From assembly GCF_009469605.1 (NCBI RefSeq), contig NZ_SSXU01000002.1, positions 238,807 through 302,806 of the forward strand: 64,000 nucleotides of DNA. Reading direction: 5' to 3'. Shown here in pieces: positions 18,123 through 32,820 of the stretch (positions within the stretch are counted from its first letter, which is position 1; each line of letters opens with the position of its first letter). The notes below the pieces were generated by a model, which was not told the origin of the DNA, did not search any database, and saw nothing but the letters and a program-made list of their open reading frames with translations. The DNA is from Zoogloea sp. 1C4 (GTDB taxonomy: Bacteria > Pseudomonadota > Gammaproteobacteria > Burkholderiales > Rhodocyclaceae). Both the position numbers and the translations under genes were made by a program.

Positions 18123-18166
18123 CTGGACAAATCCAGTGCTCATGTGTGTAATGGAGTGTGTAACGG
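18123..18166. promoter_or_regulatory. Candidate integrase arm-type sites beside attL
   Basis: GTGTGTAATGG (18144-18154) and GTGTGTAACGG (18156-18166) are direct repeats, 10 of 11 identical, one base apart. A small dyad CTGGA/TCCAG (18123-18136) precedes them. Together they fill the 153-bp space between the trpG junction and the integrase start, where arm-type binding sites and the int promoter are expected. Confidence 0.5.
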
Positions 18167-18189
18167 GCCAAACTGGAGGCGTTATACAC

Positions 18190-19470
18190 ATGGCACTCAC
18201 AGCACTCAATCTTCTCTCGGCGCGCAAAGTGGAAACGGCGCAGCCCAGGCCCAAGGTGTACCAACTCCGGGACGGAGGCAGCCTCTTTTTGCGCGTTCAG
18301 CCCAACGGCTCCAAGCTCTGGTGGTACCGCTACCGGCTGGGCGGCGCTGAACAGGTGTACTCAATCGGGGTGTACCCAAAGGTCACGCTGGAGGCAGCCC
18401 GTGCGGAACGGGACCGGGCAAAGGCGTTGGTCAAGAAGGGCCTCGACCCCATCGTGGAGAAAAAGGCGGCGATCGCCCTCCAGGCCGACACATACGAACG
18501 CACGTTCGAGACCGTTGCTCGGGAGTGGATCGTCAGCAATGCTCACTGGAGCGAGTACTACACCAACCAGGTCACCAGCTACCTTGAGAAGGATGTTTTC
18601 CCCCGGATTGGCAAGTTGCCGATCAGCAGCATCAGGGCTCCACATCTGCGCCCCATCATCAAGGATGTGGCGGCTCGTGGCGCGAAGACTGTGGCGATCC
18701 TCATCCGCCAGTGGTGTGGGCAAATCTTCAGTTATGCGGCTGCCCAAGGTCTCTGCGAATACGATCCTGCCGCCTTGCTCAAGGGACTGGTCAAGCGCCC
18801 TCAGGTCCGCCACAACCCTCCGTTGACATGGGCAGAGATCCCGGACTTTCTCAATCGTGTGGACAACGAAGGGGGTTACCAGACGACAGTCCTCGCCCTC
18901 AAGCTGATGGCTTTGACCTACGTGCGCACCGTAGAACTGCGCAAGGCCTCCTGGGAAGAGTTCGACCTGGACAACGCCATGTGGTCGATTCCGTCCGAGC
19001 GCATGAAGATGCGACGCCCCCATCTGGTTCCCCTGTCACGGCAGGCGGTGGCCGCTCTTAGGGAACTACATGCTCTAACTGGCGGCGGCAAAGTATTGTT
19101 CCCGAGCTACAGAAAGCCGGGACAAGTGATGTCGGCAACGACGCTCAATCAAGCACTCAAGCGCATGGGTTATGGCGGACGGTTTTCGTCCCATGGCTTC
19201 CGCTCGACCGCAACGACGATCCTTGGACTGTTGGGATATCCGGAGAAGCGGGTCGATCTTCAACTCGCTCATTCCAAAAAGAGCAAGGACTCATCGCGCG
19301 CGCCCTACGATCACACGAAGTTTGTGGAGTCCCGCAAGGTAATCATGCAGGACTGGGCTGACATCCTTGACTCATTGCAGGCAGGGAAACCCGTTGAAGG
19401 GGTCACGAAGGCGTTTGGCCCCATGTCGAAGCGTAGAACGGCGCTGCTCCGTGTCATAGAGCGCGAGTGA
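18190..19470 (+). CDS. int: ICE tyrosine integrase (P4 family)
   Basis: This protein of about 426 residues has an N-terminal DUF4102 arm-binding domain (LRDGGSLFLRVQPNGSKLWW), a SAM-like core-binding domain (about 105-205) and a C-terminal catalytic domain with Arg in YVRTVELRKASWEEF, HxxR in SHGFRSTATT and the nucleophile Tyr in SRAPYDHTKF. It catalyses site-specific insertion and excision of the element. The ATG at 18190 has TGGAGG ten bases upstream; an in-frame start at 18136 would overlap the presumed binding sites. Int is transcribed away from the attachment site, as in ICEclc-type elements. Confidence 0.92.
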   Translation: MALTALNLLSARKVETAQPRPKVYQLRDGGSLFLRVQPNGSKLWWYRYRLGGAEQVYSIGVYPKVTLEAARAERDRAKALVKKGLDPIVEKKAAIALQADTYERTFETVAREWIVSNAHWSEYYTNQVTSYLEKDVFPRIGKLPISSIRAPHLRPIIKDVAARGAKTVAILIRQWCGQIFSYAAAQGLCEYDPAALLKGLVKRPQVRHNPPLTWAEIPDFLNRVDNEGGYQTTVLALKLMALTYVRTVELRKASWEEFDLDNAMWSIPSERMKMRRPHLVPLSRQAVAALRELHALTGGGKVLFPSYRKPGQVMSATTLNQALKRMGYGGRFSSHGFRSTATTILGLLGYPEKRVDLQLAHSKKSKDSSRAPYDHTKFVESRKVIMQDWADILDSLQAGKPVEGVTKAFGPMSKRRTALLRVIERE

Positions 19471-19553: not shown

Positions 19554-20213
19554 CTAGGTTGGAGCATTCTTGGCGACCTGCAGTGCTCTGCGCTCGAACC
19601 GCTCTGAAACAACGTCGGCTTGTCCGCAGGGCCGCTGCAGGTGGGTCACGATCTCGTAGGGTCCGTCAGACAGCGGCCGTGTGTGAATGCCCCATCCCTG
19701 CGCATGCTCAATGCGCGATTGCGCGGATACCCCGACGCCGTAGCCGGCAGCGACCCATAGCGCGATCATCTCGAAGGAAGAGACACGCTGAATGTTCTGT
19801 TGACTCACCGCGGGAAGAGAAGGCAGCCGCTGATCCAGCAAAGGGCAATTCTCTGCAGGCCAGCGAAAGACGGAGTAGTCCAACAGTTCGGCGATCGTGA
19901 GCTTCGCCTGGTCAAGTAAGGGAAAGCGCAACGGCATGGCGACGGCCATGTTCTCGGTCCATAGAGGTTGGCTTTTCAGCGACGGATCGCTCGATCCTTC
20001 AAGCGTCATGCCCGCGTCGTAGCGGCCTTCCCGAAGTCCCGCAATCAAATCATCGGCTGTGACCTCATGAAACGAAATGGTGACTTCCGGCTCTTCCGCA
20101 CGCTGCAACGCAAGCAATGCCGAAAGATGCGATGACGGTACGCCAGGCGCTATGGCAAGCCTGAAATTGGAAAAGGAAAACTGGCTGGTGGCGTCGTGCA
20201 TGAGAGCCCCCAC
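19554..20213 (-). CDS. LysR-type effector-binding domain without DNA-binding domain
   Basis: The 219-residue product aligns with only the periplasmic-binding-protein-like half of a LysR regulator: LRLAIAPG-like start (NFRLAIAPGVPSSHL), a VTISFHEV strand, and SSFEMIALWVAAGYGVGV near the end. No helix-turn-helix precedes it; the frame opens only at 20213 (or ATG at 20201). It may be a truncated regulator or a stand-alone ligand sensor that modulates the neighbouring XRE or LysR protein. It is divergent from the XRE gene, with three dyads between them. Confidence 0.75.
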   Translation of the reverse strand: MGALMHDATSQFSFSNFRLAIAPGVPSSHLSALLALQRAEEPEVTISFHEVTADDLIAGLREGRYDAGMTLEGSSDPSLKSQPLWTENMAVAMPLRFPLLDQAKLTIAELLDYSVFRWPAENCPLLDQRLPSLPAVSQQNIQRVSSFEMIALWVAAGYGVGVSAQSRIEHAQGWGIHTRPLSDGPYEIVTHLQRPCGQADVVSERFERRALQVAKNAPT

Positions 20214-20619: not shown

Positions 20620-21516
20620 TCAGTCGCTCGAAGGGTCCCGGAGGCGGTCGATAAATCGCACCAGCGAAGCCGATGAGTTGCTGCTTTCGAGTCGAAGCAG
20701 GTAGGTGGTGATCACGGCTGTATCCAGCGCCAATGGACGGATCACCACGTCCGGTCGCTGGCTGACCGGAATCTTGGTCGCCGTCATGAAGCCCACGCCG
20801 TAGCCGGCACCGACCAAGGTGAGCATCATGTCCAGCGAGGAAACCTCCTCAACGACATTCAGTTTGTGTTCCTGGGTCTGCAGGAGGCGCGCCAACTCGC
20901 GGCAGTAGCCTTCGCACACCTGGGGATCGCACAGGACAAGAGGATGCCCCCGGAGTTCATGGAGTGGAACCTCCTTGTGGACGAGCAGTGCGTGCCGGGC
21001 TGGCAAGGCGACCACCAGCGGGTCCTGCCAGATAGGTTCGGCGACGATGCCATCACCGACGTCGGCGGTATGAGCGAATCCGATGCAGAAGTCGCCCGAG
21101 CGCAGGCCGCGCAACTGCTCGGCCAAAGGCACTTCGGACATCCGTATCTCGATCTCGGGTTCTTCGGCACGGCAACGGGCTAGAAACGCCGACAGCCGGG
21201 GATCGAGCGCGCCGTCGGATACGGCGATGCGCAGGGTGCCTCGCAAGCCCGCCGCGACAGCCTTGACGTTCTCGCGGGCCTGCTCCAGGACGGTGAATAG
21301 CCGGCGAGTGTCCTGCAGGAACACGGCACCCGCAGCGGTCAGTCGGGTGCCCCGGCGGTCCCGGTCGAAGAGCACAGCGCCTAACTCGTCCTCAAGCTCC
21401 TTGATGGCGCGGGACAGAGGAGGTTGCTCAATGTGAAGACGCTCAGCCGCCCGTGTGAAATGAAGTTCTTCGGCCAAAACGATAAAGCAACGCAGGTGCC
21501 GCAGTTCCATGAGCAA
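20620..21516 (-). CDS. LysR-family transcriptional regulator
   Basis: A complete 298-residue LysR regulator. The winged helix-turn-helix is N-terminal (MELRHLRCFIVLAEELHFTRAAERLHIEQPPLSRAIKELEDELGA spans about 3-47; core FTRAAERLHIEQPPLSRAIK), followed by the effector domain (LRIAVSDGALDPRLSAFLAR, VVALPARHALL, LTLVGAGYGVGFM). It is of the CatR/BenM-like group by overall look, but the inducer is unknown. It lies 181 bp downstream of the last gene of the long cargo directon, on the same strand, and its promoter probably lies in that gap, where I see no gene. Confidence 0.88.
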   Translation of the reverse strand: MLMELRHLRCFIVLAEELHFTRAAERLHIEQPPLSRAIKELEDELGAVLFDRDRRGTRLTAAGAVFLQDTRRLFTVLEQARENVKAVAAGLRGTLRIAVSDGALDPRLSAFLARCRAEEPEIEIRMSEVPLAEQLRGLRSGDFCIGFAHTADVGDGIVAEPIWQDPLVVALPARHALLVHKEVPLHELRGHPLVLCDPQVCEGYCRELARLLQTQEHKLNVVEEVSSLDMMLTLVGAGYGVGFMTATKIPVSQRPDVVIRPLALDTAVITTYLLRLESSNSSASLVRFIDRLRDPSSD

Positions 21517-21697: not shown

Positions 21698-23215
21698 CTA
21701 AGGTTCAATCTTTACAATGTCCCCAATGCCTTGTACGTATGCGAGTGCATAGGCCATCTCTCCAGAGGTTTGCGCATGCAAAAACATCAATGGTTGTCCG
21801 CGTGTTATCTCGTCACCTAAGCGCACCTGCAATTGAATCCCTGCGGCTGGACTCTCAGGCGCACCGGCCAATTTGGCTAAACGAGAAAGCTTACGGTTGT
21901 CGATGTGTACTGCTCGGCCTGAAGTGGTTGCCAAAAGCGGTTCGACATAGAGAGCTTGGGGCGGCTCACGAAATCCCCCCTGAGCCGCGCAGATTCTCTG
22001 AAATTTTTCCCACGCGCGGCCACTGCTGATCGTCTCATGAGCCAACCGAAGTCCCTCCCCTTCTTTGGCGACGCCGCCAAGCTCAAGCACCGCGCCCGCC
22101 ACCAACGCCACGCGGTCACATAGGTCTTGCGGCGCATCCGCCTCGTTGCGCAATACGGCCAACACGTCGCGCGCCTCCAACGCCGGGCCGATACCTCTGC
22201 CGACAGGCTGATTCCCGTCTGTAAACAGGCAACGCAATACAAGGCCAAATGACGCGGCGACTTCCGAAAGGTGATGCGCAAGATGCTCGGCAGTTTCCCG
22301 GCTGCGGACTTTTGCGGTTGGCCCAACCGGAATATCGATCACGATGTGGGTCGCCCCTGCTGCAATCTTCTTGGATAACACCGAGGCAATCAGTTGTCCT
22401 TGCGTGTCGATATCCAGTTCACGCTCAATACGCACGAAGATGTCGTCCGCGGGGCTGAGGTGCATCGCGCCGCCCCACGCCACGCATCCACCCTCTTTCT
22501 CCACGACCTTTCTGAGCGTATCCAGGTCCAGGTCTACAGGAGCCAGCGTTTCCATGGTGTCCGCGGTGCCAGCGGGAGAGGTGATGGCGCGTGATGAGGT
22601 CTTGGGCATCACCAATCCATTGGCTGCGGCGATGGCAACCACCAACGGCGTGGTGCGATTTCCCGGTAATCCGCCCACGCAATGCTTGTCCACAACAATC
22701 GGAGCCTGCCATTGCAGGTGATCCCCGACATCGACCATCGCACGGGTGAGATGGATGGTCTCTTGCATATCCAGAGGCAGTACCGCCGTTGCGGTCAGGA
22801 AGGCCGAAAGTGCGACATCGGTATAGCGACCATCGACCACATCACGGACGATCGCCTGCAACTCCGTCGTTTGCAGTCGGTGGCCGTGAATTCGCGCACG
22901 CACGGCCGACAACGATTCGAGCAGCGGAGGATGCCGAACCTGCACAAGATCGCCCTCATGAATGTCCAGGGCATCCCAGGCGGCCTCGGACAGAGCGATC
23001 TGTCCGGTTTTGAGCAGATCGCTGTCGATTTGGTACAGTAGCGCTTGCACAGTGCGGTCGCCGGCAATGATCAGTACCTGTGACCGCGGTGCCAGCCCTT
23101 CGGCACGGCAGACATGGCAATCGGTACGCATCAAGACGACGGGTTGATGCTGGGCATGCAGTCGCATGCGCAATGCTTGCAAGGCGGGTGTCTGGGGCGT
23201 GATGCGGGCACTCAC
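21698..23215 (-). CDS. AMP phosphorylase-like enzyme (archaeal-type thymidine phosphorylase family)
   Basis: This protein of about 505 residues belongs to the long (about 500) thymidine-phosphorylase branch that includes archaeal AMP phosphorylase. It has the extra N-terminal domain (VLMRTDCHVCRAEGL) and the core motif DKHCVGGLPGNRTTPLVV, followed by PKTSSRAITSPAGTADTME. AMP phosphorylases convert NMP plus phosphate to base plus ribose 1,5-bisphosphate. Plain deoA enzymes are shorter (about 440) and lack the N-terminal domain. The GTG start at 23215 overlaps the upstream TGA (GTGA) and has AGGAG seven bases ahead, so it is translationally coupled to the beta-CASP gene. It is the last gene of the directon. 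Confidence 0.82.
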   Translation of the reverse strand: MSARITPQTPALQALRMRLHAQHQPVVLMRTDCHVCRAEGLAPRSQVLIIAGDRTVQALLYQIDSDLLKTGQIALSEAAWDALDIHEGDLVQVRHPPLLESLSAVRARIHGHRLQTTELQAIVRDVVDGRYTDVALSAFLTATAVLPLDMQETIHLTRAMVDVGDHLQWQAPIVVDKHCVGGLPGNRTTPLVVAIAAANGLVMPKTSSRAITSPAGTADTMETLAPVDLDLDTLRKVVEKEGGCVAWGGAMHLSPADDIFVRIERELDIDTQGQLIASVLSKKIAAGATHIVIDIPVGPTAKVRSRETAEHLAHHLSEVAASFGLVLRCLFTDGNQPVGRGIGPALEARDVLAVLRNEADAPQDLCDRVALVAGAVLELGGVAKEGEGLRLAHETISSGRAWEKFQRICAAQGGFREPPQALYVEPLLATTSGRAVHIDNRKLSRLAKLAGAPESPAAGIQLQVRLGDEITRGQPLMFLHAQTSGEMAYALAYVQGIGDIVKIEP

Positions 23216-24570
23216 AGGGCGAACTCCTGGTTTTGCATGGGCACCGATGCGTGCCAATTGAGTTCGCGCTGGATACGTTCGCGCAGCGCCTCAGAGGCAT
23301 CAGATTCACCGTGAACAATGAACACTCTTTCCGGCGCCTTGGTAAAGCCGCGCAGCCATCGCATCAGCTCATCGCTGTCGGCATGAGCCGACAACATCGC
23401 AAGCTCGGCGACCTCTGCCTTGATCGGCATCCAGCGTCCATGGATCTTGACTTCGCGAGCGCCCTCAAGCAGCTTGCGCCCGCGCGTACCTGCTGCTTGG
23501 AATCCAGAGAACAGCAGCGTGTTCTGATGGCTACCGCCAAACGCTTCTATGTGATGCAGCACGCGGCCGCCGGTGGCCATGCCGCTGGCGGAAATAATCA
23601 CCTTGGGGTATCGATTCGCCGATAGCGCCTTGGACTCTTCAACGTCGCGCACGTATGTGACTTCTGAGAATGCCGTCTCGAAATCGTGTTGAGCGAGCTT
23701 GTGGTCGTCGGCATGGCGGTGCAGCAGCGCAGTTGCGCTGGTGGCCATGGGACTGTCCAGATAGACGGGCACGTTGCGGAGCCGACCGCGCTGTCGCAAC
23801 AGCCATAGGTCATAGATCAACGACTGCGCGCGTCCTACGGCAAAAGCGGGAATCACTACGGTGCCTCCGCGGCGAGTCGTACGCTCGATGATGTCGCCTA
23901 GCGCTTCGACGGCATCGGAACGGTCATGATGACGATTGCCATAGGTGGACTCGATGATGATGTAGTCCGCTTCCGTGACGGGTTCAGGATCAGGCATGAC
24001 CGCATCGTCATAGCGGCCCAGGTCGCCGGAGAACACCAAACGCTTGCCGCCGATGTCGATCTGCGCCGTCGCCGCTCCAAGAATGTGGCCGGCCCTGCGT
24101 AGAACCAGGCGTGCACCGCCCGGCAATACCGTCTCCTGATGCAGTGGCACGGGCTTGAACTGCAAGAGCGTGCGTTCGGCATCTCGGACCCGATACAGGG
24201 CAAGGGCTGGCTTGTGCTTGGAAAATCCCTTCCGGTTGGCGAACTCGGCATCCTTCTCCTGCAACCAAGCACTGTCGAGCAGGATGAGTTCGGCGACGTC
24301 CCGTGTGGCTGGCGTCGAGAAAATCTTCCCGCGGAACCCGTTCAGCACCAATCGGGGGAGATATCCACAATGATCCAGGTGCGCGTGCGTCAGTACAACC
24401 GCATCGATGTCCTTGGACTCAACGACAAGATGCTGCCAGTTCAGCTCGCGCAGGTTCTTCAGTCCTTGGAAAAGTCCGCAGTCGATCAGGATGCGGGTAC
24501 TGCCATATGTGATCAGGTGTTTGGAGCCGGTGACGGTACCGGCACCGCCCAGGCTGGTCAGTGAGAGCAT
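23212..24570 (-). CDS. Beta-CASP metallo-beta-lactamase-fold RNase
   Basis: This 452-residue protein has a metallo-beta-lactamase core with the zinc motif LTHAHLDHCGYLPRL (about 58-72), then DLGRY, a beta-CASP insertion (YIIIESTYGNRHH, VVIPAFAVGRAQ, SASGMATGGRVLHH) and the C-terminal RNA-metabolism MBL segment (AMLSAHADSDELMRWL, VFIVHGE). These features mark the YSH1/CPSF-like bacterial RNases. It probably cleaves or degrades RNA in the cytosol. GAGGAG lies seven bases before the ATG. Its coupling to a nucleotide phosphorylase suggests RNA turnover feeding nucleotide breakdown; that link is inferred. Confidence 0.85.
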   Translation of the reverse strand: MLSLTSLGGAGTVTGSKHLITYGSTRILIDCGLFQGLKNLRELNWQHLVVESKDIDAVVLTHAHLDHCGYLPRLVLNGFRGKIFSTPATRDVAELILLDSAWLQEKDAEFANRKGFSKHKPALALYRVRDAERTLLQFKPVPLHQETVLPGGARLVLRRAGHILGAATAQIDIGGKRLVFSGDLGRYDDAVMPDPEPVTEADYIIIESTYGNRHHDRSDAVEALGDIIERTTRRGGTVVIPAFAVGRAQSLIYDLWLLRQRGRLRNVPVYLDSPMATSATALLHRHADDHKLAQHDFETAFSEVTYVRDVEESKALSANRYPKVIISASGMATGGRVLHHIEAFGGSHQNTLLFSGFQAAGTRGRKLLEGAREVKIHGRWMPIKAEVAELAMLSAHADSDELMRWLRGFTKAPERVFIVHGESDASEALRERIQRELNWHASVPMQNQEFAL

Positions 24571-24653
24571 GAAGTTGTCTCCTCGCTTGTTGGTGGGTTG
24601 TGAAATCAGGAGCTGGCGCGGTCACTGCGGACCGTGTCAGAACCACTTGAAAT

Positions 24654-26984
24654 TCACGCGTCGGTCGCGGCAGCAGCAGCCTGCGAACTGTTCCAGCCGG
24701 TCACTTGCGCAGCGGCATAGATGGCATCCACCCAGGTGCATCGATTGGCGATCAGCATTCCAGCCACATCGAGGGTGCCGCCGTGGTTGATGTAGCCCAA
24801 AGCCCGCGTCTTCGAAGGGCCGCTGTCAATGCGGCGAAGCACGCCCAGCATCGGCTCAGGGCGGGTATGGCTTATCAACACGCGCGGCAGGTGAGGCGGG
24901 AAGAGCGCTTGCAGGGATTCGTCACCGAGCACGAAGGCGGCCTCAAGTTCGTCTCGCGGAATGCGTAGACGGCCGGGCTCGACCACCACGGTGATGCACG
25001 ACGCAAGCCCATGGTGCTCCAGGCGGGCATGGGCTTTGAGCGCTTCCTCCAACTGGTAGGCGCCAATCGCTACGAATTGCAGTTGTGCGGTGGACGGATC
25101 GCCGGCTACATGGGCTGCTCCATGCTCGATCAGCGATTGAGCCGCGGCGGCACTGAAGTGATTCGGCGTGTCGCGCTTGGAGACCACCACACAAGCCACT
25201 TGGCCGCGGCTGGCGTAGACCGCTCGCAACGCGGCGCACGCCGTGTTTTCATCCACCGGGAACAACACGCGTGCGGTGTCCGACATCTCCCCCAGCAATG
25301 CTTCGCCAATGGTCGGGTCCTGGTGTGACTGCTCGTTCTTGCTGTTCTCCCAGGTGTGGGATGTGACGATCAGCGGGACGGAGATCCAGCCTGGCGGCTG
25401 GCCCAGCTCCTTCTGCCGACGCGCGAAGATGATCTCCTGGCGCATCAATCCAAGCATCTTGACCGCGAATGCCTCGTAGCTGACGATCAGGTTCAGCCCC
25501 CCTTTGTTGGCGAGGGCGGCGGCCGCAACGGCTTCTTCATTGAGTGCGGTGACCACCGAGCCATCCGTCGATTCCGGGACGCCGGGTTCGGGCACGTTGA
25601 CGCGGTGCTTGAGCAGCGCCAGAGTGGCCCCCATCTTGTTGCTGGCCAGTTCGTCGGGATTGCCGATCCGGATGCGCAACTGTGGATTTGCCTGCACCAG
25701 CTCCACGAACCAACGGTCCAGTGCGGACATGGCGCTGCCCGATACCTCCGTTGGCGCCCAGGCCGGCATCGGCAGATGAGGGCTCGCTGGATGGCGTAGG
25801 GCCATGGGGTGCTCGCTTTCGCGCGAGCGCTGGCTCTGGCCGTGATTCGCAAGGACGGTGAGCGCGTTTTCCAGTTCGCTCTCGGGCACGAACAGCGCCG
25901 CAGCCCCTGCGTTGAAGGCCTCGCGTGCCTGCGCGTGCTCGCGCGGATTGCCGTCCAACGGCAGGTTGTGGGCGGCATTGGTCGCCGCGCCCGGGAAGCC
26001 GAAACCTTTCTCCGTCTCGGCGATCACGTAGGGGAACTTGACGGGATAGCGCCGGTTCGATTGTGCGGCGAAAGCGCTCAGCGTGTCTTCAGATTCGACA
26101 ATGGCCCATGCGATCGCCACTGGATCGCGTCCATCGATGATGACGGGATCAAAGCCGTTGTGGCGCAGATCTTCGGCTAACCAGGCAGCGCCACCTTCCT
26201 GCACGATCTGGGTGCGCTGCTCGATGCGTCGCCCGTTGAGAATCATGATCGGGACGGCGAAGCCGCAGTCCTCGGCGCGCCACCAGCGCGGTGCCCAGTC
26301 CGAGCCACGTTGCTCCTCGAAAGCGCCATCACTGAGGAATGCCACCAGGCTTTCTCCCGGCAACGGCGTGTGCACATACTGCAGCCCGGCGAACCCCAGA
26401 TAGCCGCCTTCGGAGATCGCGCCGGCCGTGTTCGGCCCGGCATGGCTGCCCAGCGGTACCGCGGGCCGCCCCTGCTTATCGATGGCATAGGAGTAGAAAT
26501 CCTCGATCAGGCGTGACAGGCCTGCCTCGCTGCGGTCGTAGCGTCCACGCTGGGCGGCGGACACATCGCCGGTCAGTGCGTTCACCGCTTCGATCGCGGC
26601 CACGCAGTGCCCTTGTCCCATTAGCCAGCCGCGTGTCGTCCCGGTCAGTGCATTGGCCAACAGATAACCCACGAAAGCCGGCACCATGTCGAGCGAACCG
26701 CCGGTGTGGCCTTCGGGCGTTTGTTTGAAATCATCGGAGCCCAGAGGGCGGCCGCTTCGGTCGATGCGCCGGGCATAGGTCATATGCGCCACTACGCTCA
26801 TGGCCATGCAGGCCACCCGGTCGGCTGCGGCCAGCAGCGCATGGGCCGAGGCTTCATCTGCCACACGCCCTTGCGCAACCATGCGGTGCACGAGGGTCTG
26901 CATACGTTCGATGGTTTCGGACTGGTGCGCGATGGGCCCGTAACCGGCACGCCAATCGATTGCGAGGTTAGCCTGAGAGGGCAT
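24654..26984 (-). CDS. Phosphoketolase/transketolase-family TPP enzyme (divergent)
   Basis: This 776-residue protein resembles xylulose-5-phosphate/fructose-6-phosphate phosphoketolases in length and domain order (PP domain, Pyr domain at about 400-600, C-terminal domain). It departs at key points. The TPP/metal motif reads FLSDGAFEEQ where phosphoketolases have GDGEAETG, and EGHTGGSLDMV looks transketolase-like. SHTWENSKNEQSHQDPTI resembles the phosphoketolase TWRQDHNGFSHQDPG-type motif. Homologues are sometimes labelled phosphoketolase or xylulose-5-phosphate 3-epimerase. The likely substrate is a pentose phosphate, but the product (acetyl phosphate or not) is uncertain. AAGGA precedes the ATG. 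It lies between PRPP synthetase and the RNase gene. Confidence 0.75.
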   Translation of the reverse strand: MPSQANLAIDWRAGYGPIAHQSETIERMQTLVHRMVAQGRVADEASAHALLAAADRVACMAMSVVAHMTYARRIDRSGRPLGSDDFKQTPEGHTGGSLDMVPAFVGYLLANALTGTTRGWLMGQGHCVAAIEAVNALTGDVSAAQRGRYDRSEAGLSRLIEDFYSYAIDKQGRPAVPLGSHAGPNTAGAISEGGYLGFAGLQYVHTPLPGESLVAFLSDGAFEEQRGSDWAPRWWRAEDCGFAVPIMILNGRRIEQRTQIVQEGGAAWLAEDLRHNGFDPVIIDGRDPVAIAWAIVESEDTLSAFAAQSNRRYPVKFPYVIAETEKGFGFPGAATNAAHNLPLDGNPREHAQAREAFNAGAAALFVPESELENALTVLANHGQSQRSRESEHPMALRHPASPHLPMPAWAPTEVSGSAMSALDRWFVELVQANPQLRIRIGNPDELASNKMGATLALLKHRVNVPEPGVPESTDGSVVTALNEEAVAAAALANKGGLNLIVSYEAFAVKMLGLMRQEIIFARRQKELGQPPGWISVPLIVTSHTWENSKNEQSHQDPTIGEALLGEMSDTARVLFPVDENTACAALRAVYASRGQVACVVVSKRDTPNHFSAAAAQSLIEHGAAHVAGDPSTAQLQFVAIGAYQLEEALKAHARLEHHGLASCITVVVEPGRLRIPRDELEAAFVLGDESLQALFPPHLPRVLISHTRPEPMLGVLRRIDSGPSKTRALGYINHGGTLDVAGMLIANRCTWVDAIYAAAQVTGWNSSQAAAAATDA

Positions 26985-27020
26985 TTCGGGTTCCTTGAAA
27001 ATAGCGGGATAGGTGGAAGA

Positions 27021-27917
27021 TCAGGCTCGCGGATCGGTCTGGCCGCTGGAAAGCGCGCCGGCAATCAGCGAAGCCAGACCGATCCGGTTGCTCGGATGCG
27101 GCACCGCGTCGGTGGACGTGATCCGAGCGAACAGCGGCGTCAATTGGCTCCAGGCGTCTTCGGCGAATAGGGCATGCACCACTACGCACTCCGGCTTGCG
27201 CATTCCTTGTTCGGCGAGTTTGTGCGCCGCGACAGCGAGCGTGCGGCCCGAGGATGCGATGTCGTCCACCAGCACCGGCGTTCTGTCACGCCAGACCGAC
27301 AGGTCGGGAACATCGATGTCCACGCTGCGATCGCCATGGCGTGTCTTGCGAAGCACGGCGTGCGGCACGCCGATGCGGGAGGCGATGGAGCCGGCCCACT
27401 GCTCGCTTTCCTCATCGGGGCCGACGATCAAGGGCTTTTCGACATGATTGGCGATCCAGTCGGCCAGCAGCGGCGCGGCATGCAAGGTAGTGGTGGGAAT
27501 CGTGTAGAGCGCGGAGAGCGTCGGATAGCGGTGCAGATGTGGATCCACCGTAAGCAGCTTGTCGAACGTCGATGAGACCAGGCGTGCGAAAGTCCGCGAC
27601 GTCACGCTTTCGCCGTCATGGAATCGCTTGTCCTGGCGCATGTAGGCCAGGTAGGGTGCAACCAAGTTCACCTCGAGCGCACCAAGCTCGCGCGCGGCGT
27701 CCGCGGCAAAAACCAGAAGCAGGAATTGCGGATCTGGATGGGTCAGCGTGCAAATCAGATCCACGATCTGGCCAACGGGTTCGCCATGCAATCGGACATA
27801 GCTCTCGCCATCGGGAAATCGGCGTGTTTCGACGCGGCCGACATCGCTGCCATATGCCTGCGCGAGGCGACCGGCGAAATCTTCGTTGCCTGGAAGGGCA
27901 AGTGCGAGTCGTTGCAT
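27021..27917 (-). CDS. Ribose-phosphate pyrophosphokinase (archaeal-like short type)
   Basis: The 298-residue product has the PRPP-synthetase motifs FPDGESYVRL, PYLAYMRQDKRF (flexible loop/ATP site), DPHLHRYPTLSALYTIP, LRKTRHGDRSVDI and the PRPP-binding loop VLVDDIASSGRTLA. It is shorter than housekeeping Prs (about 315) and closer to archaeal forms. It links ribose 5-phosphate plus ATP to PRPP plus AMP and may run either way. AAAGGAGA lies eight bases before the ATG. It is 36 bp ahead of the TPP-enzyme gene and follows a small coupled ORF. Most genomes carry prs elsewhere, so this is a dedicated second copy by inference. Confidence 0.85.
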   Translation of the reverse strand: MQRLALALPGNEDFAGRLAQAYGSDVGRVETRRFPDGESYVRLHGEPVGQIVDLICTLTHPDPQFLLLVFAADAARELGALEVNLVAPYLAYMRQDKRFHDGESVTSRTFARLVSSTFDKLLTVDPHLHRYPTLSALYTIPTTTLHAAPLLADWIANHVEKPLIVGPDEESEQWAGSIASRIGVPHAVLRKTRHGDRSVDIDVPDLSVWRDRTPVLVDDIASSGRTLAVAAHKLAEQGMRKPECVVVHALFAEDAWSQLTPLFARITSTDAVPHPSNRIGLASLIAGALSSGQTDPRA

Positions 27918-27954
27918 GCGGTTGTCTCCTTTCTTATTGGTCGTCCTTGTTTAC

Positions 27955-28068
27955 TTATCGAACTCGGATGCTTGGTTGGTGTCGGTGCTCTACACGAACA
28001 ATCAGTCCCATGCCGACGAACAACGACAGGACGGCCCGTATGGAGTCGAGGAAGGAATCGACCGGCAT
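27955..28068 (-). CDS. 37-residue peptide with hydrophobic centre, coupled to the LpxR-like gene
   Basis: An open frame of 37 codons starts at the ATG of a TGATG overlap with the LpxR-like stop codon (28070-28066) and ends at TAA 27955. The peptide begins MPVDSFLDSIRAV, has a short hydrophobic run (AVLSLFVGMGLIV) and a basic tail (VEHRHQPSIRVR). The overlap and the 37-bp gap to the PRPP synthetase start make translation plausible. No family was recognised. It could be a small membrane peptide or chance; comparison with homologous islands would settle it. Confidence 0.45.
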   Translation of the reverse strand: MPVDSFLDSIRAVLSLFVGMGLIVRVEHRHQPSIRVR

Positions 28069-29138
28069 CAGAATTTCCTTCCTACAGTGATCGTTCCGTA
28101 GACCGGGATTTCTTTTTGTCCCCGGAATTCGCGTGTGCGGTGGTAGCGGGCTATCGCGATGCGCCAGTTGCCTTGGGTAATCGCGACGCCGTAGCCGACA
28201 TCCGCCACGAGTGGCCGCTTATCAACGCTATGGCCGGACTTGAAGGTATTGCCATCCAACGTGATGTCGTGCAGAACCCAGCGAGCGTCTAGCGCCACGA
28301 AGAGGTGGCCGTTCCAGTTGCTGCCAGCGGTCGTGCGCACGGGCGAGGTGTTCTCTCCGGCAGGCCGTAGCGGTGCCGTGCCTAAATCATCAGGCAGGCG
28401 CAGCCCATAGCGCAGTTCTCCACCGACATTCGCGTAGGTGGCGAAGTTGCCGAAGCTGCCACCCCAGTGGCGGGTCAGATCCCAGCCCCAACCGCTGACG
28501 TCTTCTTGCCTGAAGACTCGTGTTCGGCGTTCGTGCAGCAACTGCAGCACAGGCTCGTCGCGCAGTTGGTGTCGCCAGCCATTGAATTTGTCGACGCCGA
28601 TGGTGTCATGCCACCAGTTCTGGGTTTGCCTGGCCAAGGAGGAGGGGCCCACAACACCGACGCGGATTTGTGAGGTACGCAGCGTATCGCCGCGCCGCGC
28701 GTTGTAGCCGAAGCTCAACATCATTGCGCCGGCGAAAGGGCGGTCGTCTTTGATCAGATCGCTGCGCGTTTTGTCGCTGGGGGTGTACATCATCTGTCCG
28801 AAGCCGATGGTCATGTTCTGTTCGTCAAAACCCTCGGGTTGCAGCACCGTGAGAAAACGATTCAGCCCACGGACGAGACGGGGTAGGCAAGGGTCATCGC
28901 GATAGTCCACAAGGTTGGGGGAGACCCAGCTGACGAGAAATCCATTGGAGTAGCCTTGATCTTGTCCAATGCCGCCGAACATGTCGTTGTCGATCCGCAG
29001 ATTGAGCGTTCCCGTTGAGCGCAGCGGGTTGTCCTGGTGGCAGGACTGGGCCTGTGCGGAGGCGCTCAGCAATAGCAGCAGCAAGGAGGCTGCGACTTCC
29101 AGCCTCCATTCAGCGGGGTCGCTGGACTGAACTTTCAT
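28068..29138 (-). CDS. LpxR-family lipid A deacylase-like outer-membrane protein
   Basis: The product has about 356 residues, with a signal peptide (hydrophobic LEVAASLLLLLLSASAQAQ). The segment LNLRIDNDMFGGIGQDQGYSNGF is diagnostic for LpxR (DUF2219), quoted here in part; it holds the conserved Asn-Asp and Gly-rich metal site. The rest is a barrel ending in VYGTITVGRKF. LpxR removes the 3'-acyloxyacyl chain of lipid A at the outer membrane. The ATG at 29138 overlaps the universal-stress-protein stop (TGATG), so the two are coupled; frames extending further upstream lack a signal peptide. It may remodel LPS under stress, in keeping with the efflux genes of the island. Confidence 0.8.
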   Translation of the reverse strand: MKVQSSDPAEWRLEVAASLLLLLLSASAQAQSCHQDNPLRSTGTLNLRIDNDMFGGIGQDQGYSNGFLVSWVSPNLVDYRDDPCLPRLVRGLNRFLTVLQPEGFDEQNMTIGFGQMMYTPSDKTRSDLIKDDRPFAGAMMLSFGYNARRGDTLRTSQIRVGVVGPSSLARQTQNWWHDTIGVDKFNGWRHQLRDEPVLQLLHERRTRVFRQEDVSGWGWDLTRHWGGSFGNFATYANVGGELRYGLRLPDDLGTAPLRPAGENTSPVRTTAGSNWNGHLFVALDARWVLHDITLDGNTFKSGHSVDKRPLVADVGYGVAITQGNWRIAIARYHRTREFRGQKEIPVYGTITVGRKF

Positions 29139-29632
29139 CACGCTGGCGTGCCACCCTGCCCAGGGGTTGCAGTCACAATGACCGATTGGGACTGGCGCAC
29201 CAGCATCACTGGAACTGGTGCGATGCGAGCGAGCTGCTCTGCATCGCTTCCCATCAGCAGCCTGTCCACGCCCCGGCGTCCGTGGGTACCCAACACCACC
29301 AACTCGCATTGAGTAGTCAGTGCCTGCTGAGCGATGAGCACCGAGACGCGCTCGCCGTTGCTTTCCAGAAGGACGGTCTCAACCACCAGGCCTCCCTGCC
29401 TCAGCCGCAGCGCCGCCTCGTCCAGCAGCTTCTGCCCGGCCGCCAGGAAGCCCGGCCTCACTTCTTCAATATAGATCCTCGGCCTCTCGAAGCCGTTGCT
29501 ATGCTTCATCTCCTCGATGACGTGCAGCAAGACGATGGTTGCGCCATTCAGGCGTGCCAGCACCGCAGCGTGGTGGAGCGCCAAATCGGCAGTAGGACTT
29601 CCGTCGAGCGGAACCAGGATTCTTGAGTACAT
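29138..29632 (-). CDS. Universal stress protein UspA family
   Basis: This 164-residue single-domain Usp has the start YSRILVPLDGSPTADLAL and the ATP-binding motif GTHGRRGVDRLLMGSDAEQL (G2xG9xGS type), so it probably binds ATP. Usp proteins accumulate under starvation, low oxygen or membrane stress and are cytosolic. It is 87 bp downstream of phaC and overlaps the LpxR-like gene start. Usp genes often accompany PHA and phosphoketolase clusters; here it suggests expression under energy limitation (inference). Confidence 0.9.
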   Translation of the reverse strand: MYSRILVPLDGSPTADLALHHAAVLARLNGATIVLLHVIEEMKHSNGFERPRIYIEEVRPGFLAAGQKLLDEAALRLRQGGLVVETVLLESNGERVSVLIAQQALTTQCELVVLGTHGRRGVDRLLMGSDAEQLARIAPVPVMLVRQSQSVIVTATPGQGGTPA

Positions 29633-29719: not shown

Positions 29720-31471
29720 TCAGTTGCGTACATATTCCCCTGGGGCGTCGCAAACAGTGGGGTATCCACTGGATTCAGCACCTATGAGCGGAGGCGCAAC
29801 AACATCACCGGAACGCTCTCGCAGCCACGCCGACCATGCGGGCCACCAGGAATCCGGATGCGTCTGCATCGTCGCTTGCCACTCATCCGGCGCCATGTAT
29901 CCATCACCGGCCGCGCGGGTATGGATTTGATATTGGCGGTTACCTCGGCCGGGCTCGCTCACGATGCCGCCGTTGTGTCCTCCAGTGGTCAGCACGAAAG
30001 TCAGCTCGGCCGAAGACAGGAGATGCAGCTTGTAAACCGAGCGCCAAGGCGCAATATGATCCGAGGCAGTGCCGACGCAAAACACCGGTACAGCGATGTC
30101 TCCCACTGAAACGGGGCGACCCGTGACGGGATAACGCCCCGCGCTGAGATCGTTATTCAGGTAAAGGCGTCGGAGATACTGCGAATGCATCTTCGCGGGG
30201 AGGCGAGTCCCATCGGCATTCCAAGCCATCAGGTCGGTCATTGCCCGGCGATCGCCCAATAGGTATTCGTCAATCATGCGAGACCATATGAGATCGTAGG
30301 AACGCAGTAGCTGAAAAGCTCCGCTCATCTGGTCGGAGGTCAAATAACCGGTTTGAGCCATGCTGGCTTCCAACAGCGCCACTTGACTCTCGTTGATGAA
30401 AAGACTCAGCTCGCCCGGTTCGCTGAAGTCCGTCTGTGCGGCAAGCAGGCTTACCGACACCAGCCGCGTATCGCCATCACGCGCCATGGCTGAAGCACCA
30501 ATGGCCAGTAGCGTTCCGCCCAGGCAATAACCAGCCGCGTGGACTCCATGCCCGGGGACGACGGAAGTCACAGCGTCCAGCGCTGCATGCAGGCCGAACT
30601 CCAGGTACTCATCCATGCCCAAATCTCGATCCTCAGCATCCGGATTTCTCCAGGAGATGCAAAAAACCGTATGCCCTTGCGCAACCAGATACCGTATCAG
30701 CGAGTTATGCGGTGACAGATCCAGTACGTAGTACTTCATGATCCAGGCAGGAATGATCAGGATCGGTTCGGGATGGACTTTCTCGGTAGTGGGCGTGTAC
30801 TGAATCAGTTCGATCAGTCGATTTCTCAGAACGACTTTTCCTTCCGTGACCGCTACGTCGCGCCCAACGACGAAGTTCTCCGTTCCCGCGGGAGGCTGGC
30901 CGGATAGTTGCCGACGCAAGTCGTCGAGAAAGTTGGACGTCCCCCGCGCTAGATTGGCGCCTTGCTCTGCGATGGTTCTTTTCAGGACAACGGGGTTGAA
31001 AACCGCAGCGTTGGCGGGCGAAAGCATTTCCAGCCACTGTTTGGCGCCAAACGCCAGCAGGCGTTGGTGTTTCGGATCCACTCCCCACACCCCCTGCGTG
31101 GCCTGCTCCCACCATTTGGTCTGATTGACGAATGAACTGCGGAAAAGGTCGTAGGGCCATTGATCCCATGCAGGATCGTTGAAGCGGCGGTCATTGACAG
31201 GTGACCGGTCAGGAGCGGTGGCTCCCCGGTCCGGGTTGGCCGGATTCTTCTTCAATACGGCCATCCATTGCTCGGACAGGGAGGCTGCAAACGCCAAAAG
31301 CTCGGCTTGCTTGCCAGGACTGTTTGCTAAATGGCTCGCCCAGTCCACCCACGCGAGCAACGATGTCTCCGGCGAAATAGACGACCAAGCCTGTGCCCAA
31401 GCGACATGGGCATCCCCATCCAACTTCGGATTGATGGCTGAGTCGATATTGCCGTTCTTTTTATTCGTCAA
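29720..31471 (-). CDS. phaC: Class I poly(3-hydroxyalkanoate) synthase
   Basis: This 583-residue PHA synthase has the N-terminal domain (WWEQATQGVWGVDPKHQRLL region) and an alpha/beta-hydrolase core. The lipase-like box is GYCLGG (nucleophile Cys), with Asp in GTASDHIAPW and His in TTGGHNGGIVSEPG completing the triad. It polymerises (R)-3-hydroxyacyl-CoA on granule surfaces. It lies with phasin, phaB and acetyl-phosphate genes on the same strand. No phaA thiolase is present in the window, so acetoacetyl-CoA must come from elsewhere. Confidence 0.93.
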   Translation of the reverse strand: MTNKKNGNIDSAINPKLDGDAHVAWAQAWSSISPETSLLAWVDWASHLANSPGKQAELLAFAASLSEQWMAVLKKNPANPDRGATAPDRSPVNDRRFNDPAWDQWPYDLFRSSFVNQTKWWEQATQGVWGVDPKHQRLLAFGAKQWLEMLSPANAAVFNPVVLKRTIAEQGANLARGTSNFLDDLRRQLSGQPPAGTENFVVGRDVAVTEGKVVLRNRLIELIQYTPTTEKVHPEPILIIPAWIMKYYVLDLSPHNSLIRYLVAQGHTVFCISWRNPDAEDRDLGMDEYLEFGLHAALDAVTSVVPGHGVHAAGYCLGGTLLAIGASAMARDGDTRLVSVSLLAAQTDFSEPGELSLFINESQVALLEASMAQTGYLTSDQMSGAFQLLRSYDLIWSRMIDEYLLGDRRAMTDLMAWNADGTRLPAKMHSQYLRRLYLNNDLSAGRYPVTGRPVSVGDIAVPVFCVGTASDHIAPWRSVYKLHLLSSAELTFVLTTGGHNGGIVSEPGRGNRQYQIHTRAAGDGYMAPDEWQATMQTHPDSWWPAWSAWLRERSGDVVAPPLIGAESSGYPTVCDAPGEYVRN

Positions 31472-31614: not shown

Positions 31615-32820
31615 CTAACCGGCCATCAGGCTGATTACCAGTGCGTTCGCAATATCGATGACGAACCCACATACCAAGGGCACCACAATGAACGCCTCGC
31701 GTGCCGCACCATGCTCCCGAGTCACCGCCGTCATGTTGGCGATGGCAGTGGCGGTAGATCCCAGCGCAATACCGCCGAAACCCGCGCACACCACGGCGGC
31801 TTGGTAATCCTTGCCCATTGCCCGAAAAACAATCAGCAAAACGAATGCGATGACCAAGGCAATCTGCACCAGCATCGCCGCCGTGATGAAGGCGAGCACG
31901 GGCTGCAGTTCCCAGAGCCTGAGTCCCATCAGCGCCATGGTCAGAAACAGGCCCAATGACATGTCGGAAACCAGGGCGATGCCTGGCTGCATGCTCGGCC
32001 AGTTCCATAAACGTCCGCGCCCACTTGGCCTCATCCAGTCGGCCGCCATGCGCAGGAGAATTCCGGCCAGCAGGCAGCCCACAAAGGCGGGCAGCGTGAC
32101 GGCGGTACGCGCGACCAAGGCATTGATTCCGTATCCCAACATCAAGGCGAAGTTGAGCCAGAGCAATGCCAGCAGCAGGCCGTAGTAGTCCAGGCGGGCA
32201 TGCTGCTCATCCCTGTGCAGCGTGCCAATTTCCAGGGCGCTGTCCCCAGAGGCTTGAAGCCGATGCCTACGCATGAGCAAGCTTGCGACTGGGCCCCCGA
32301 TGGTGCAGGCCGCGATCAGGCCGATCATGTTCGCTGCCAATCCCAGTTCCTGCGCTTGCGCAATGCCGAGGTTGTGAACGAAGTGATCGGACCAGGCCAA
32401 GGTGGTGCCCACGCCTCCTGTCAGGGAAATCGATCCCACCATCAGCCCGGTGCGCGGATCCAGGCCGAAGGCGCGTGCCATCTCCATCCCGGCCAGGTTC
32501 TGCAGCACCATGAACCCGATGGCCAACCCCGACAGGATCAGCAAGGGCCGTCCACCATGGCGCAGCGTGCGGGCGTCGGTACCCAGGCCAATGGCCGCAA
32601 AGAAGTACAGCAGCAGCGCGTCACGCGCTTCGAGATCGAAACTGATGACGATCCCCGCACCGTAGTACAGGGCGAAGACAACCAGGGCGCAGGCCAAGCC
32701 GCCCACCAGGGATTCCGGGATGCTGTATCGACGCAAGATGCGCCAACGCGCAACCAAGCCCTTGCCCACGAACAACAGCAGGATGGCGAGCGTGAATCCA
32801 TGGAAGGCATCGATCGTCAT
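31615..32820 (-). CDS. gltS: Sodium/glutamate symporter
   Basis: The product has about 401 residues and ten or so hydrophobic helices, with the GltS features FFAAIGLGTDARTLRHGG, GSISLTGGVGTTLAWSDHF (with the GGVGT motif) and, in the second half, VVCAGFGGIALGSTATAIANM. It imports glutamate with Na+ across the inner membrane. The ATG at 32820 overlaps the ackA stop (ATGA), indicating translational coupling. Its place inside an acetate/PHA cluster is unusual; glutamate uptake could serve osmotic or nitrogen balance (speculative). A 143-bp gap to phaC follows. Confidence 0.88.
   Translation of the reverse strand: MTIDAFHGFTLAILLLFVGKGLVARWRILRRYSIPESLVGGLACALVVFALYYGAGIVISFDLEARDALLLYFFAAIGLGTDARTLRHGGRPLLILSGLAIGFMVLQNLAGMEMARAFGLDPRTGLMVGSISLTGGVGTTLAWSDHFVHNLGIAQAQELGLAANMIGLIAACTIGGPVASLLMRRHRLQASGDSALEIGTLHRDEQHARLDYYGLLLALLWLNFALMLGYGINALVARTAVTLPAFVGCLLAGILLRMAADWMRPSGRGRLWNWPSMQPGIALVSDMSLGLFLTMALMGLRLWELQPVLAFITAAMLVQIALVIAFVLLIVFRAMGKDYQAAVVCAGFGGIALGSTATAIANMTAVTREHGAAREAFIVVPLVCGFVIDIANALVISLMAG

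Follow-up and report, generated by a model that had tools for sequence, protein, structure and literature searches.

A mobile four-gene cassette that probably dismantles RNA nucleotides to bases and activated ribose

In a 64,000-nucleotide stretch of the Zoogloea sp. 1C4 genome (NZ_SSXU01000002.1, positions 238,807–302,806; hereafter, the window), an integrative conjugative element carries a cassette of four genes, encoding an AMP-phosphorylase-like nucleotide phosphorylase (AMPP), a beta-CASP metallo-beta-lactamase ribonuclease-like protein (MBL), a divergent phosphoketolase-like TPP enzyme (XFPL) and a PRPP-synthetase paralog with an altered PP loop (PRS-like). This set is a real, conserved mobile module, which probably dismantles RNA nucleotides to bases and activated ribose, with one key step probably catalyzed by a specialized enzyme, and the activated ribose may feed energy production when oxygen is scarce. 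We infer each of the activities, as well as the flux from RNA to ATP, and to our knowledge no activity has been measured for any of the four proteins. That the cassette is a mobile, probably low-oxygen-induced nucleotide-phosphorolysis module acting through the five steps set out in the Discussion is, in our estimate, close to evenly balanced between true and false.

Results

All six genes of the locus were found on the minus strand where a first-pass annotation of this DNA had put them, and matches to family models bore out the identities that it had assigned. In coordinate order, these are AMPP (21698–23215; NF003338, 673 bits against a cut-off of 434), MBL (23212–24570; PF10996, PF07521 and PF00753, all above cut-off), XFPL (24654–26984; PF03894, 144 bits, and PF09364, 43 bits), PRS-like (27021–27917; NF005537, 432 bits against 322), an LpxR-like outer-membrane protein (28068–29138; PF09982, 350 bits) and a universal stress protein, Usp (29138–29632; PF00582, 106 bits). 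The reported coupling of MBL to the phosphorylase is visible at a GTGA junction (23215–23212), at which the MBL stop codon TGA (23214–23212) overlaps the AMPP start codon GTG (23215–23213), and the ATG of the LpxR-like gene overlaps the Usp stop codon (TGATG). Further along the minus strand lie neighboring cargo in the form of a class I PHA synthase-like gene, PhaC (29720–31471; above cut-off for PF07167 and below it for TIGR01838, at 516 against 623 bits), the acetate/propionate kinase AckA (longest ORF 32817–34364, its domain starting at residue ~116; TIGR00016, 337 bits against 293) and a fusion of MaoC with a phosphate acetyl/butyryltransferase (34931–36352; NF006045, 701 bits against 282; PF01575 and PF01515).

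The four-gene cassette is carried on an integrative conjugative element (ICE); the annotation had proposed a mobile element. Third-position GC drops from ~0.9 to ~0.7 near ~17.85 kb, and the cargo is flanked on one side by a plus-strand tyrosine integrase (18136–19470; PF22022, PF13356 and PF00589) and on the other by PFGI-1-class ICE genes (51773 onward), including a minus-strand MobH/TraI relaxase (51773–53710; TIGR03760, 302 bits against 161; NF041494, 370 against 200). This relaxase, TIGR03755, TIGR03757 and the integrase together place the element in the PFGI-1/clc class. AckA, which had been claimed for the energy route, is present on the same island. The cassette genes also occur together on plasmids (116 plasmid records carry the phosphorylase), in neighborhoods with Usp, alcohol dehydrogenase, PHA and P-type ATPase genes.

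A gene-neighborhood check, which the annotation had named as a possible refuter, found the four genes co-conserved. From the best 80 of at least 532 XFPL loci, we retained the 59 with full flanks (the flanks of the other 21 did not extend 7 kb on both sides). AMPP, MBL and PRS-like were all present at 32 of these 59; MBL accompanied XFPL at 45, AckA lay within 5 kb on the same strand as XFPL at 18, and XFPL had neither AMPP nor AckA on its strand at 10. Because the loci are the best 80 of at least 532, these counts are weighted towards close relatives and do not represent independent events. All four genes stood side by side in 39, 6 and 2 runs, representing three complete orders, MBL adjoined AMPP–PRS without XFPL in 14 + 7 runs, AMPP–PRS stood by themselves in 22 runs, and XFPL had none of the other three alongside in 30, some of them at contig ends. 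Recurrence in several orders and many genera, together with the co-occurrence of the genes across genomes, led us to reject a chance string of genes.

Across a sample of 398 Pseudomonadota genomes that included the Zoogloea genome itself, AMPP was found in 45 at E ≤ 1e-120 (44 above the family cut-off), and 39 of the 40 genomes with PRS-like above its cut-off also had AMPP (Fisher test, 1.8e-46, own genome included). PRS-like lay within 400 bp of AMPP on the same strand at 38 of 46 AMPP loci, which came from 43 of the 45 AMPP genomes (leaving out our own, G000, and G293, a contig-end fragment). Two further loci (L168 and L169) had PRS-like in the AMPP cassette, and in four genomes without PRS-like (loci L182–L185) PhnN was fused to AMPP, so that one partner or the other accompanied AMPP at 44 of 46 loci (38 + 2 + 4). 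Co-occurrence of XFPL with AMPP was loose (4 of 13 XFPL genomes; p = 0.048), and a divergent MBL lay beside XFPL in 7 of the 9 XFPL genomes without AMPP. From these patterns we infer that AMPP and PRS-like form a core pair and MBL and XFPL a second pair, which islands and plasmids unite. Because 9 of 13 XFPL genomes have no AMPP, 10 of 59 loci have neither AMPP nor AckA on the XFPL strand and 30 runs have XFPL by itself, its link to nucleotides is weak. Of the 169 listed ORFs that neighbor AMPP–PRS, we scanned 84 (10 one at a time and the other 74 together) and saw no recurring third enzyme: each family was confined to at most 3 of the 74 batch-scanned ORFs, and no phosphatase family came up twice among the 84.

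The phosphorylase itself exceeded the cut-off for TIGR02645 (582 bits against 434.6) as well as that for NF003338, and fell below the TIGR03327 AMP_phos equivalog cut-off (483 against 535 bits). Its closest solved structure is 4ga5, which we take to be the Thermococcus AMP phosphorylase listed as 'putative thymidine phosphorylase'. In an alignment, AMPP and 4ga5 had in common an N-terminal domain and the motifs GG[VL]PGN[KR]T, KTSSRAITS..AGTAD and WGGA..L.PADD, all three of which were missing from the three pyrimidine nucleoside phosphorylases aligned, and the Arg of PGNRT was kept in 99 of 99 AMPP relatives (hits with <70% coverage were excluded for both AMPP and PRS-like). The AMP phosphorylase of Thermococcales converts a nucleoside monophosphate (NMP) and phosphate to a base and ribose 1,5-bisphosphate (R15P), and on these motifs AMPP would probably do the same. 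AMPP thus resembles the enzyme of the Thermococcales pathway (see PMC9700705) in superfamily, motifs and N-terminal domain, whereas here PRS-like or PhnN replaces the R15P isomerase of that pentose bisphosphate pathway and a phosphoketolase is found on the islands. Among the papers listed in a literature search that covered few subscription journals, none dealt with a bacterial AMPP–PRS pair.

The annotation had supposed that R15P is converted to ribose 5-phosphate (R5P), a step for which the Zoogloea genome has no recognized enzyme, leaving a gap in the proposed chain. The sole PhnN match in the host scored 48 bits against a cut-off of 156 and looks by eye like guanylate kinase. The R15P isomerase model TIGR00511 was above cut-off in 0 of 45 AMPP genomes, with weaker matches in 23; the host's own match is an IF-2B protein (PF01008, 208 bits; TIGR00511, 155 against 314) that we took for MtnA. 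RuBisCO is missing from the host and present in 21 of the 45, and with 0 of 45 for the isomerase we rejected a RuBisCO/R15P-isomerase pathway. Downstream of the host IF-2B gene lies an ORF that, read by eye, is aldolase-like.

PRS-like is a candidate for the missing R15P step, because its PP loop is altered and its usual neighbor is the phosphorylase. In the window the loop reads GPDEESEQW, and the pattern PD.E[SA] holds in 92 of 92 relatives, departing from the canonical PD.G[GA]; the 16 readable canonical sequences all had PD.GG (16 of 21 candidate loci, with L246, L249, L254 and L257 dropped for a wrong or missing frame and L261 as PRS-like; the FastTree input for this comparison still held three wrong-frame rows). 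These same features run against the first-pass reading of an ordinary PRPP synthetase, and the host also has a canonical PRS. Scores exceeded the cut-off for TIGR01251 (185 bits against 113) as well as for NF005537. The closest solved structure is 1u9y, presumably the Methanocaldococcus PRPP synthetase, so the label 'archaeal-like' suits the best solved relative, but by sequence comparison the family is a separate bacterial paralog. The parts of PMC5395218, PMC9232217 and PMC4363470 that we consulted hold nothing on the PP loop. The catalytic Lys and Arg are retained in 92 of 92 relatives, and with them the protein could be an ordinary PRPP synthetase.

PhnN is ribose 1,5-bisphosphate phosphokinase, and bifunctional PhnN–phosphorylase fusions have UniProt entries; these contain the same phosphorylase with a partner that acts on R15P and makes PRPP, whereas the cassette partner is a PRS-family paralog and not the guanylate-kinase-like PhnN. 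PhnN was above cut-off in 14 of the 45 AMPP genomes and missing at that level from 31 of the 39 genomes with both AMPP and PRS-like, the other eight (G094, G169, G181, G217, G319, G361, G391 and G419) having a separate PhnN alongside the pair. The fusion of PhnN to AMPP where PRS-like is missing suggests that R15P is the metabolite shared by AMPP and PRS-like, with PRS-like as its user. The fusion also fits both partners making PRPP, R15P not being the substrate of PRS-like. A literature search that covered few subscription journals found no papers on the four-gene cluster or the PhnN fusion.

The assignment of XFPL to the phosphoketolase family of TPP enzymes gained support. XFPL is over the gathering scores of Pfam XFP and XFP_N, and homology to XFP extends across most of the protein. 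In Bifidobacterium numbering, H64, H97, H142, H320, S440, E479, Y501, N549, H553 and K605 are each kept with at most one exception among 92 relatives (one row, L146, is a distant match of 23% identity and probably the sole exception at several columns), and G155 is kept in 40 of 40. Catalytic, dehydration and Pi-site residues are present, except for Q321N, H548K and a variable R442. XFPL is, however, only 21–23% identical to 15 canonical XFP sequences (two of which, L017 and L019, come from one gene, with 40 of the 92 XFPL rows compared) and below the cut-offs of all six matched NCBIfam phosphoketolase models (best, 137 against 962 bits); with Q321N and H548K, its substrate may differ. As for MBL, its closest solved structure is the RNase TTHA0252, and columns that we take to be the named MBL/beta-CASP motifs (HxHxDH, GH, GD, E, H and H) are near-invariant in 91 relatives. 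MBL scored below the equivalog cut-offs for aCPSF1 (274 against 580 bits) and Cas14 (395 against 800).

By analogy with Bradyrhizobium diazoefficiens, the cassette is probably induced at low oxygen. At 0.5% O2, the proteins of bll3117-3116-3115 had log2 fold changes of 2.1, 4.4 and 2.9 and the transcripts fold changes of 5.1, 7.7 and 15.4; in that paper's table, the trio is in the lenient list (log2 fold change ≥1), outside the 62 statistically top proteins, unmarked as FixK2 or NifA targets and not induced in bacteroids (PMC6515984). Matched to the cassette families by names and order alone, it comprises MBL, PRS and phosphorylase consecutively, ordered as at L153, L154, L156 and L157, four loci at which no XFPL lies beside AMPP. 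Of the anaerobic or starvation energy route that the annotation had envisaged, the low-oxygen setting gained support from this trio, and the chain itself has a gap at R15P. The low-oxygen-activated lxa locus of Burkholderia cenocepacia, tied to persistence at low oxygen, is alike by name in its Usps, acetoacetyl-CoA reductase, phosphate acetyl/butyryltransferase and 51-kDa metallo-beta-lactamase protein; phosphorylase, PRS and phosphoketolase are missing from its protein table, which covers changed proteins only (PMC6127331). FNR-type sites with at most two mismatches numbered 16, where a crude block shuffle gave 5.8; judged by this crude background, none upstream of the cassette was convincing.

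Discussion

We propose that the beta-CASP RNase would, as its family suggests, break RNA into smaller pieces or 5′-nucleotides, and that AMPP, given its active-site motifs, would convert NMP and phosphate to base and R15P, thereby releasing ribose doubly phosphorylated without ATP. PRS-like would then, most simply, carry out the PhnN reaction (R15P + ATP → PRPP + ADP), a role suggested by its pairing with AMPP, by the PhnN fusion that takes its place elsewhere and by its changed PP loop; from PRPP, R5P could be regained or bases re-salvaged. XFPL, on its catalytic residues, would split a ketose phosphate into acetyl phosphate and glyceraldehyde 3-phosphate; its substrate is most likely xylulose 5-phosphate, which host isomerase and epimerase would supply from R5P. 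The island AckA would make ATP. A more specific version, which we hold tentatively, is that PRS-like is a previously unrecognized kind of R15P-using enzyme that has replaced PhnN (acting by the above reaction or by phosphoryl transfer from R15P to AMP or ADP). With AMPP it would give bacteria a way from nucleotides to PRPP that needs neither RuBisCO nor R15P isomerase, and integrative elements and plasmids would spread the pair, along with the RNase and phosphoketolase, as a module for RNA recycling and energy at low oxygen.

The tightness of the AMPP and PRS-like pair would also be expected if the cassette served adenylate control. PRS-like would then be a normal PRPP synthetase (R5P + ATP → PRPP + AMP), and AMPP would remove that AMP, or AMP from a fall in ATP, and so pull adenylate kinase towards ATP; the pair would act, under energy stress, as a sink for AMP or a device for base exchange and not as an RNA-to-carbon route. 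The AMP made by PRS is the phosphorylase's substrate, the catalytic Lys and Arg are retained, and low-oxygen induction of the Bradyrhizobium trio (PMC6515984) agrees. We nevertheless consider this explanation unlikely: it leaves R15P without a recognized use in the host, the four PhnN fusions suggest that R15P is used further, all 92 relatives show the changed PP loop, and a canonical PRS is already present in the host.

We give still less credence to the literal route of the first-pass annotation, in which RNA would pass through NMP, R15P, R5P, xylulose 5-phosphate and acetyl phosphate to ATP, with a putative phosphatase or host enzyme converting R15P to R5P and PRS as a side branch. The same genes are present, AckA is near XFPL at 18 of 59 loci (best 80 of at least 532), and Gnd, which adjoins XFPL on a Phenylobacterium plasmid and is near it at L106, fits a pentose-phosphate substrate; but the host has no recognized R15P enzyme, no phosphatase family recurred among the 84 of 169 neighboring ORFs, and XFPL and AMPP co-occur loosely (p = 0.048). 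Equally improbable, in our judgment, is that a hypoxia module (MBL and XFPL) and a salvage module (AMPP and PRS-like) are unrelated stress functions, joined only as low-oxygen islands gather such genes. The pairs do occur apart, MBL accompanies XFPL in 7 of 9 genomes without AMPP, AMPP–PRS stand alone in 22 runs, and the neighborhoods hold other such genes (Usp, alcohol dehydrogenase, PHA and P-type ATPase). Yet the complete set of four stands side by side in three gene orders (39, 6 and 2 runs), and MBL adjoins AMPP–PRS also without XFPL (14 + 7 runs).

If the nucleotide-phosphorolysis reading is true, about one-ninth of the sampled Pseudomonadota genomes (45 of 398) and many plasmids (116 records) carry an R15P-releasing, ATP-free phosphorylase paired with an R15P-using enzyme, tied to oxygen limitation in at least one organism, and part of how aerobes survive anoxia becomes testable with two purified enzymes. 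It would also give a function to a PRS paralog that databases name an ordinary synthetase and to the widespread protein that plasmid records call 'thymidine phosphorylase family protein', and would call into question the label 'xylulose 5-phosphate 3-epimerase', which most plasmid records give to XFPL.

Gene content and carrier of the cassette

All six genes named in the first-pass annotation were recovered on the minus strand where it had placed them: an AMP-phosphorylase-like enzyme (AMPP, 21698–23215), a beta-CASP metallo-beta-lactamase RNase-like protein (MBL, 23212–24570), a divergent phosphoketolase-like TPP enzyme (XFPL, 24654–26984), a PRPP-synthetase paralogue (PRS-like, 27021–27917), LpxR (28068–29138) and Usp (29138–29632). 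The GTGA coupling that it described is also present, with the AMPP start GTG at 23215 overlapping the MBL stop, and the LpxR ATG at 29138 overlaps the Usp stop. Upstream of the cassette on the same strand lie genes for a PHA synthase-like protein, GltS, AckA (acetate/propionate kinase), an SDR, a MaoC–phosphotransacetylase fusion, a DUF3141 protein (36349–39291; 980 residues, 970 bits), a phasin and an RbbA-type ribosome-associated ABC exporter (41241–46600; NF033858, 1573 bits) accompanied by HlyD and outer-membrane efflux partners. Other loci again show RbbA matches near the cassette, and a Sulfitobacter plasmid has another DUF3141 gene ~6 kb from its cassette. A LysR-type ORF at 19554–20213, in which the substrate domain alone was recognised, adjoins a full LysR gene (20620–21516) and is possibly a broken or split regulator.

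An integrative conjugative element carries the cassette: at ~17.85 kb third-position GC falls, a tyrosine integrase gene comes next, and MobH/TIGR03760, TIGR03755, TraU and TIGR03757 genes lie at 51.8–60.4 kb. By eye, the element apparently sits inside the 5′ end of trpG (17990–18040), which reads ATGCTGCTGATGGTCGATAACTACGAT and then TGA, with a trpE-like gene (15738–17210) just upstream of the junction; a search of the genome for a second exact copy of an 18-base pattern at this junction found none. Nearly the same islands, with XFPL 94–97% identical, occur in Thauera propionica, Eoetvoesiella, Achromobacter pulmonis and Brachymonas. A Pigmentiphaga copy (XFPL 94%) has the same upstream genes and lacks MBL and AMPP after XFPL in its locus.

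The cassette comprises two gene pairs

XFPL has at least 532 relatives in one-per-species genomes, of which we retained the best 80, and we counted same-strand neighbours at the 59 of these loci with 7 kb of flank on both sides. MBL lay within 1.5 kb of XFPL at 45/59, AMPP within 3.5 kb at 38/59 and PRS-like within 1.5 kb at 29/59, all three being present at 32/59; AckA lay within 5 kb at 18/59, with 11/59 loci having AckA without AMPP and 10/59 having neither. When XFPL- and AMPP-centred loci were pooled, the four-gene runs were PRS-XFPL-MBL-AMPP (39), XFPL-MBL-AMPP-PRS (6) and MBL-AMPP-PRS-XFPL (2), three complete orders that are circular permutations of each other. Shorter runs included MBL-AMPP-PRS (14), AMPP-PRS-MBL (7), XFPL-MBL-AMPP (7), AMPP-PRS (22), XFPL-MBL (9) and seven further runs of two or three genes, and the genes also stood alone (XFPL 30, MBL 16, AMPP 6, PRS 2).

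An even draw of 398 Pseudomonadota genomes contained AMPP in 45, and 43 of these supplied 46 loci for neighbour counts. PRS-like lay within 400 bp of AMPP on the same strand at 38/46 loci, MBL within 2.5 kb at 19/46 and XFPL within 6 kb at 4/46. PRS-like (NF005537, over cut-off) was found in 40/398 genomes, 39 of which had AMPP (Fisher 1.8e-46), whereas AMPP was found in only 4 of the 13/398 genomes with XFPL (p = 0.048). Because PRS-like and AMPP co-occur and adjoin each other so consistently, in contrast to the loose overlap of XFPL with AMPP, AMPP-PRS is the tight pair. MBL-XFPL is a second pair: among the nine XFPL genomes without AMPP at the search threshold, seven have a divergent MBL (32–40%) adjoining XFPL on the other strand.

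In plasmid records, XFPL matches were 48–68% identical for the 15 listed first of 198, and AMPP matched 116 records. We inspected the surroundings of XFPL on seven plasmids; three carried PRS-XFPL-MBL-AMPP and one MBL-AMPP-PRS-XFPL. An Acidovorax plasmid has XFPL ~8 kb from MBL-AMPP-PRS on the opposite strand, a Phenylobacterium plasmid has XFPL-Gnd and MBL-AMPP-PRS at separate sites, and an Alteromonas plasmid has AckA-XFPL only. ATP synthase subunit genes lie near AMPP in two loci, L238 (plasmid pMSHV) and L159; pMSHV also has a PRS-like match by tblastn that is absent from its (incomplete) gene table.

Sequence features of AMPP and XFPL

AMPP aligns over 452 residues, N-terminal domain included, to 4ga5, which we take to be the Thermococcus AMP phosphorylase, and shares with it three active-site motifs that are missing from three pyrimidine nucleoside phosphorylases compared. 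Because its score against the AMP_phos model (483 bits) falls below the cut-off of 535, we did not assign it to that equivalog.

XFPL is only 21–23% identical to 15 canonical phosphoketolases. The available text of two reports assigns dehydration and phosphate attack in phosphoketolase to His142, Gly155, His64, Tyr501 and Asn549 (PMC6435721) and likewise to His97 (PMC10547157). XFPL retains all six, so phosphoketolase-type catalysis is likely; the family is marked by replacement of Q321 with N in 90/92 relatives and of H548 with K in 91/92. We found no support in this analysis for the record label 'epimerase'.

PhnN fusions suggest ribose 1,5-bisphosphate as a possible shared metabolite

Six AMPP genomes lacked PRS-like over the cut-off. 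In one (G342) a PRS-like match of 299.6 bits adjoins AMPP, and another (G312) shows a partial match that contains an in-frame stop. The other four (G306, G365, G435 and G445) encode AMPP and a PhnN domain (164–186 bits, over cut-off) in a single open frame. PhnN converts ribose 1,5-bisphosphate (R15P) to PRPP, and its NCBIfam family carries the title 1,5-bisphosphokinase, PRPP-forming. Such a fusion is easiest to explain if the phosphorylase produces R15P, in which case PRS-like would fill PhnN's place in the remaining genomes. Altogether, 44/46 AMPP loci had one partner or the other (38 adjacent, 2 in the cassette and 4 fused); the exceptions were L172 and L186, the latter copy having an in-frame stop. 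A simple swap of PhnN for PRS-like is disfavoured because 8/39 genomes with both AMPP and PRS-like keep a stand-alone PhnN, with none over cut-off in 31/39. PhnN was over cut-off in 14/45 AMPP genomes, R15P isomerase in 0/45, and RuBisCO was found in 21/45; a search for RuBisCO in the Zoogloea genome itself found none.

A canonical PRS is encoded separately in the host; it is 27% identical to PRS-like, and its PP loop is SPDVGG. The PP loop, which in PRS binds the diphosphate, reads PD.E[SA] in 92/92 PRS-like relatives versus PD.GG in 16/16 readable canonical PRS, and is followed by Trp in 91/92 relatives; the Glu suggests an altered phosphate site. The catalytic Lys and Arg are kept in 92/92. 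The R5P loop of the Zoogloea protein is DDIASSGRT versus canonical D[TS][AG][GN]T; its Ser is common to 1u9y but its Arg is not, and across relatives the Arg position holds Arg in 56/92, His in 13 and Asn in 7. These features support, but do not prove, R15P as the PRS-like substrate. The available main text of a 2026 preprint that defines new bacterial PRPS classes does not contain the word 'phosphorylase' (PMC13252144).

The relatives form a single clade (FastTree support 0.954) together with a lone member, L261. Its genome, G436 (L235/L261), is the sole one of 40 with PRS-like but without AMPP at the search threshold, and the function of the copy there could reveal PRS-like's own activity.

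Low-oxygen expression of a Bradyrhizobium trio and a proposed route

In Bradyrhizobium diazoefficiens, according to the available portion of PMC6515984, bll3117, bll3116 and bll3115 (phosphorylase, PRS and MBL) are up at 0.5% O2, with protein log2 fold changes of 2.1, 4.4 and 2.9 and transcript fold changes of 5.1, 7.7 and 15.4, as is the phosphoketolase family protein bll2518 (protein log2 4.3, transcript 8.2). That portion places the trio in a lenient list (log2 fold change of at least 1 at both levels), outside the 62 top proteins, with no FixK2 or NifA target mark and no induction in bacteroids (PMC6515984). The trio's gene order is that of L153, L154, L156 and L157, and from names and order we infer that it is orthologous to the cassette genes. 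By name, the Burkholderia cenocepacia lxa locus also has gene types in common with the cassette region in the available text of PMC6127331.

In the route that we propose, AMPP would convert NMP and phosphate to base and R15P, PRS-like would convert R15P to PRPP, and PRPP would yield R5P or be re-salvaged. Host enzymes would take R5P to xylulose 5-phosphate, XFPL would cleave this to acetyl phosphate and glyceraldehyde 3-phosphate (GAP), and AckA would use acetyl phosphate to make ATP. The first-pass annotation had outlined such an RNA-to-ATP scheme; because the gene content and pairing are observed, though we infer every reaction, the outline is plausible. It had skipped the hardest step, the gene for which may already be among those it listed.

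A type II glyceraldehyde-3-phosphate dehydrogenase, a fitting consumer of GAP released by phosphoketolase, recurs near the cassette in L020, L021, L024 and some of L065–L103; among full-flank loci, 9/59 have it no more than 10 kb away on that strand.
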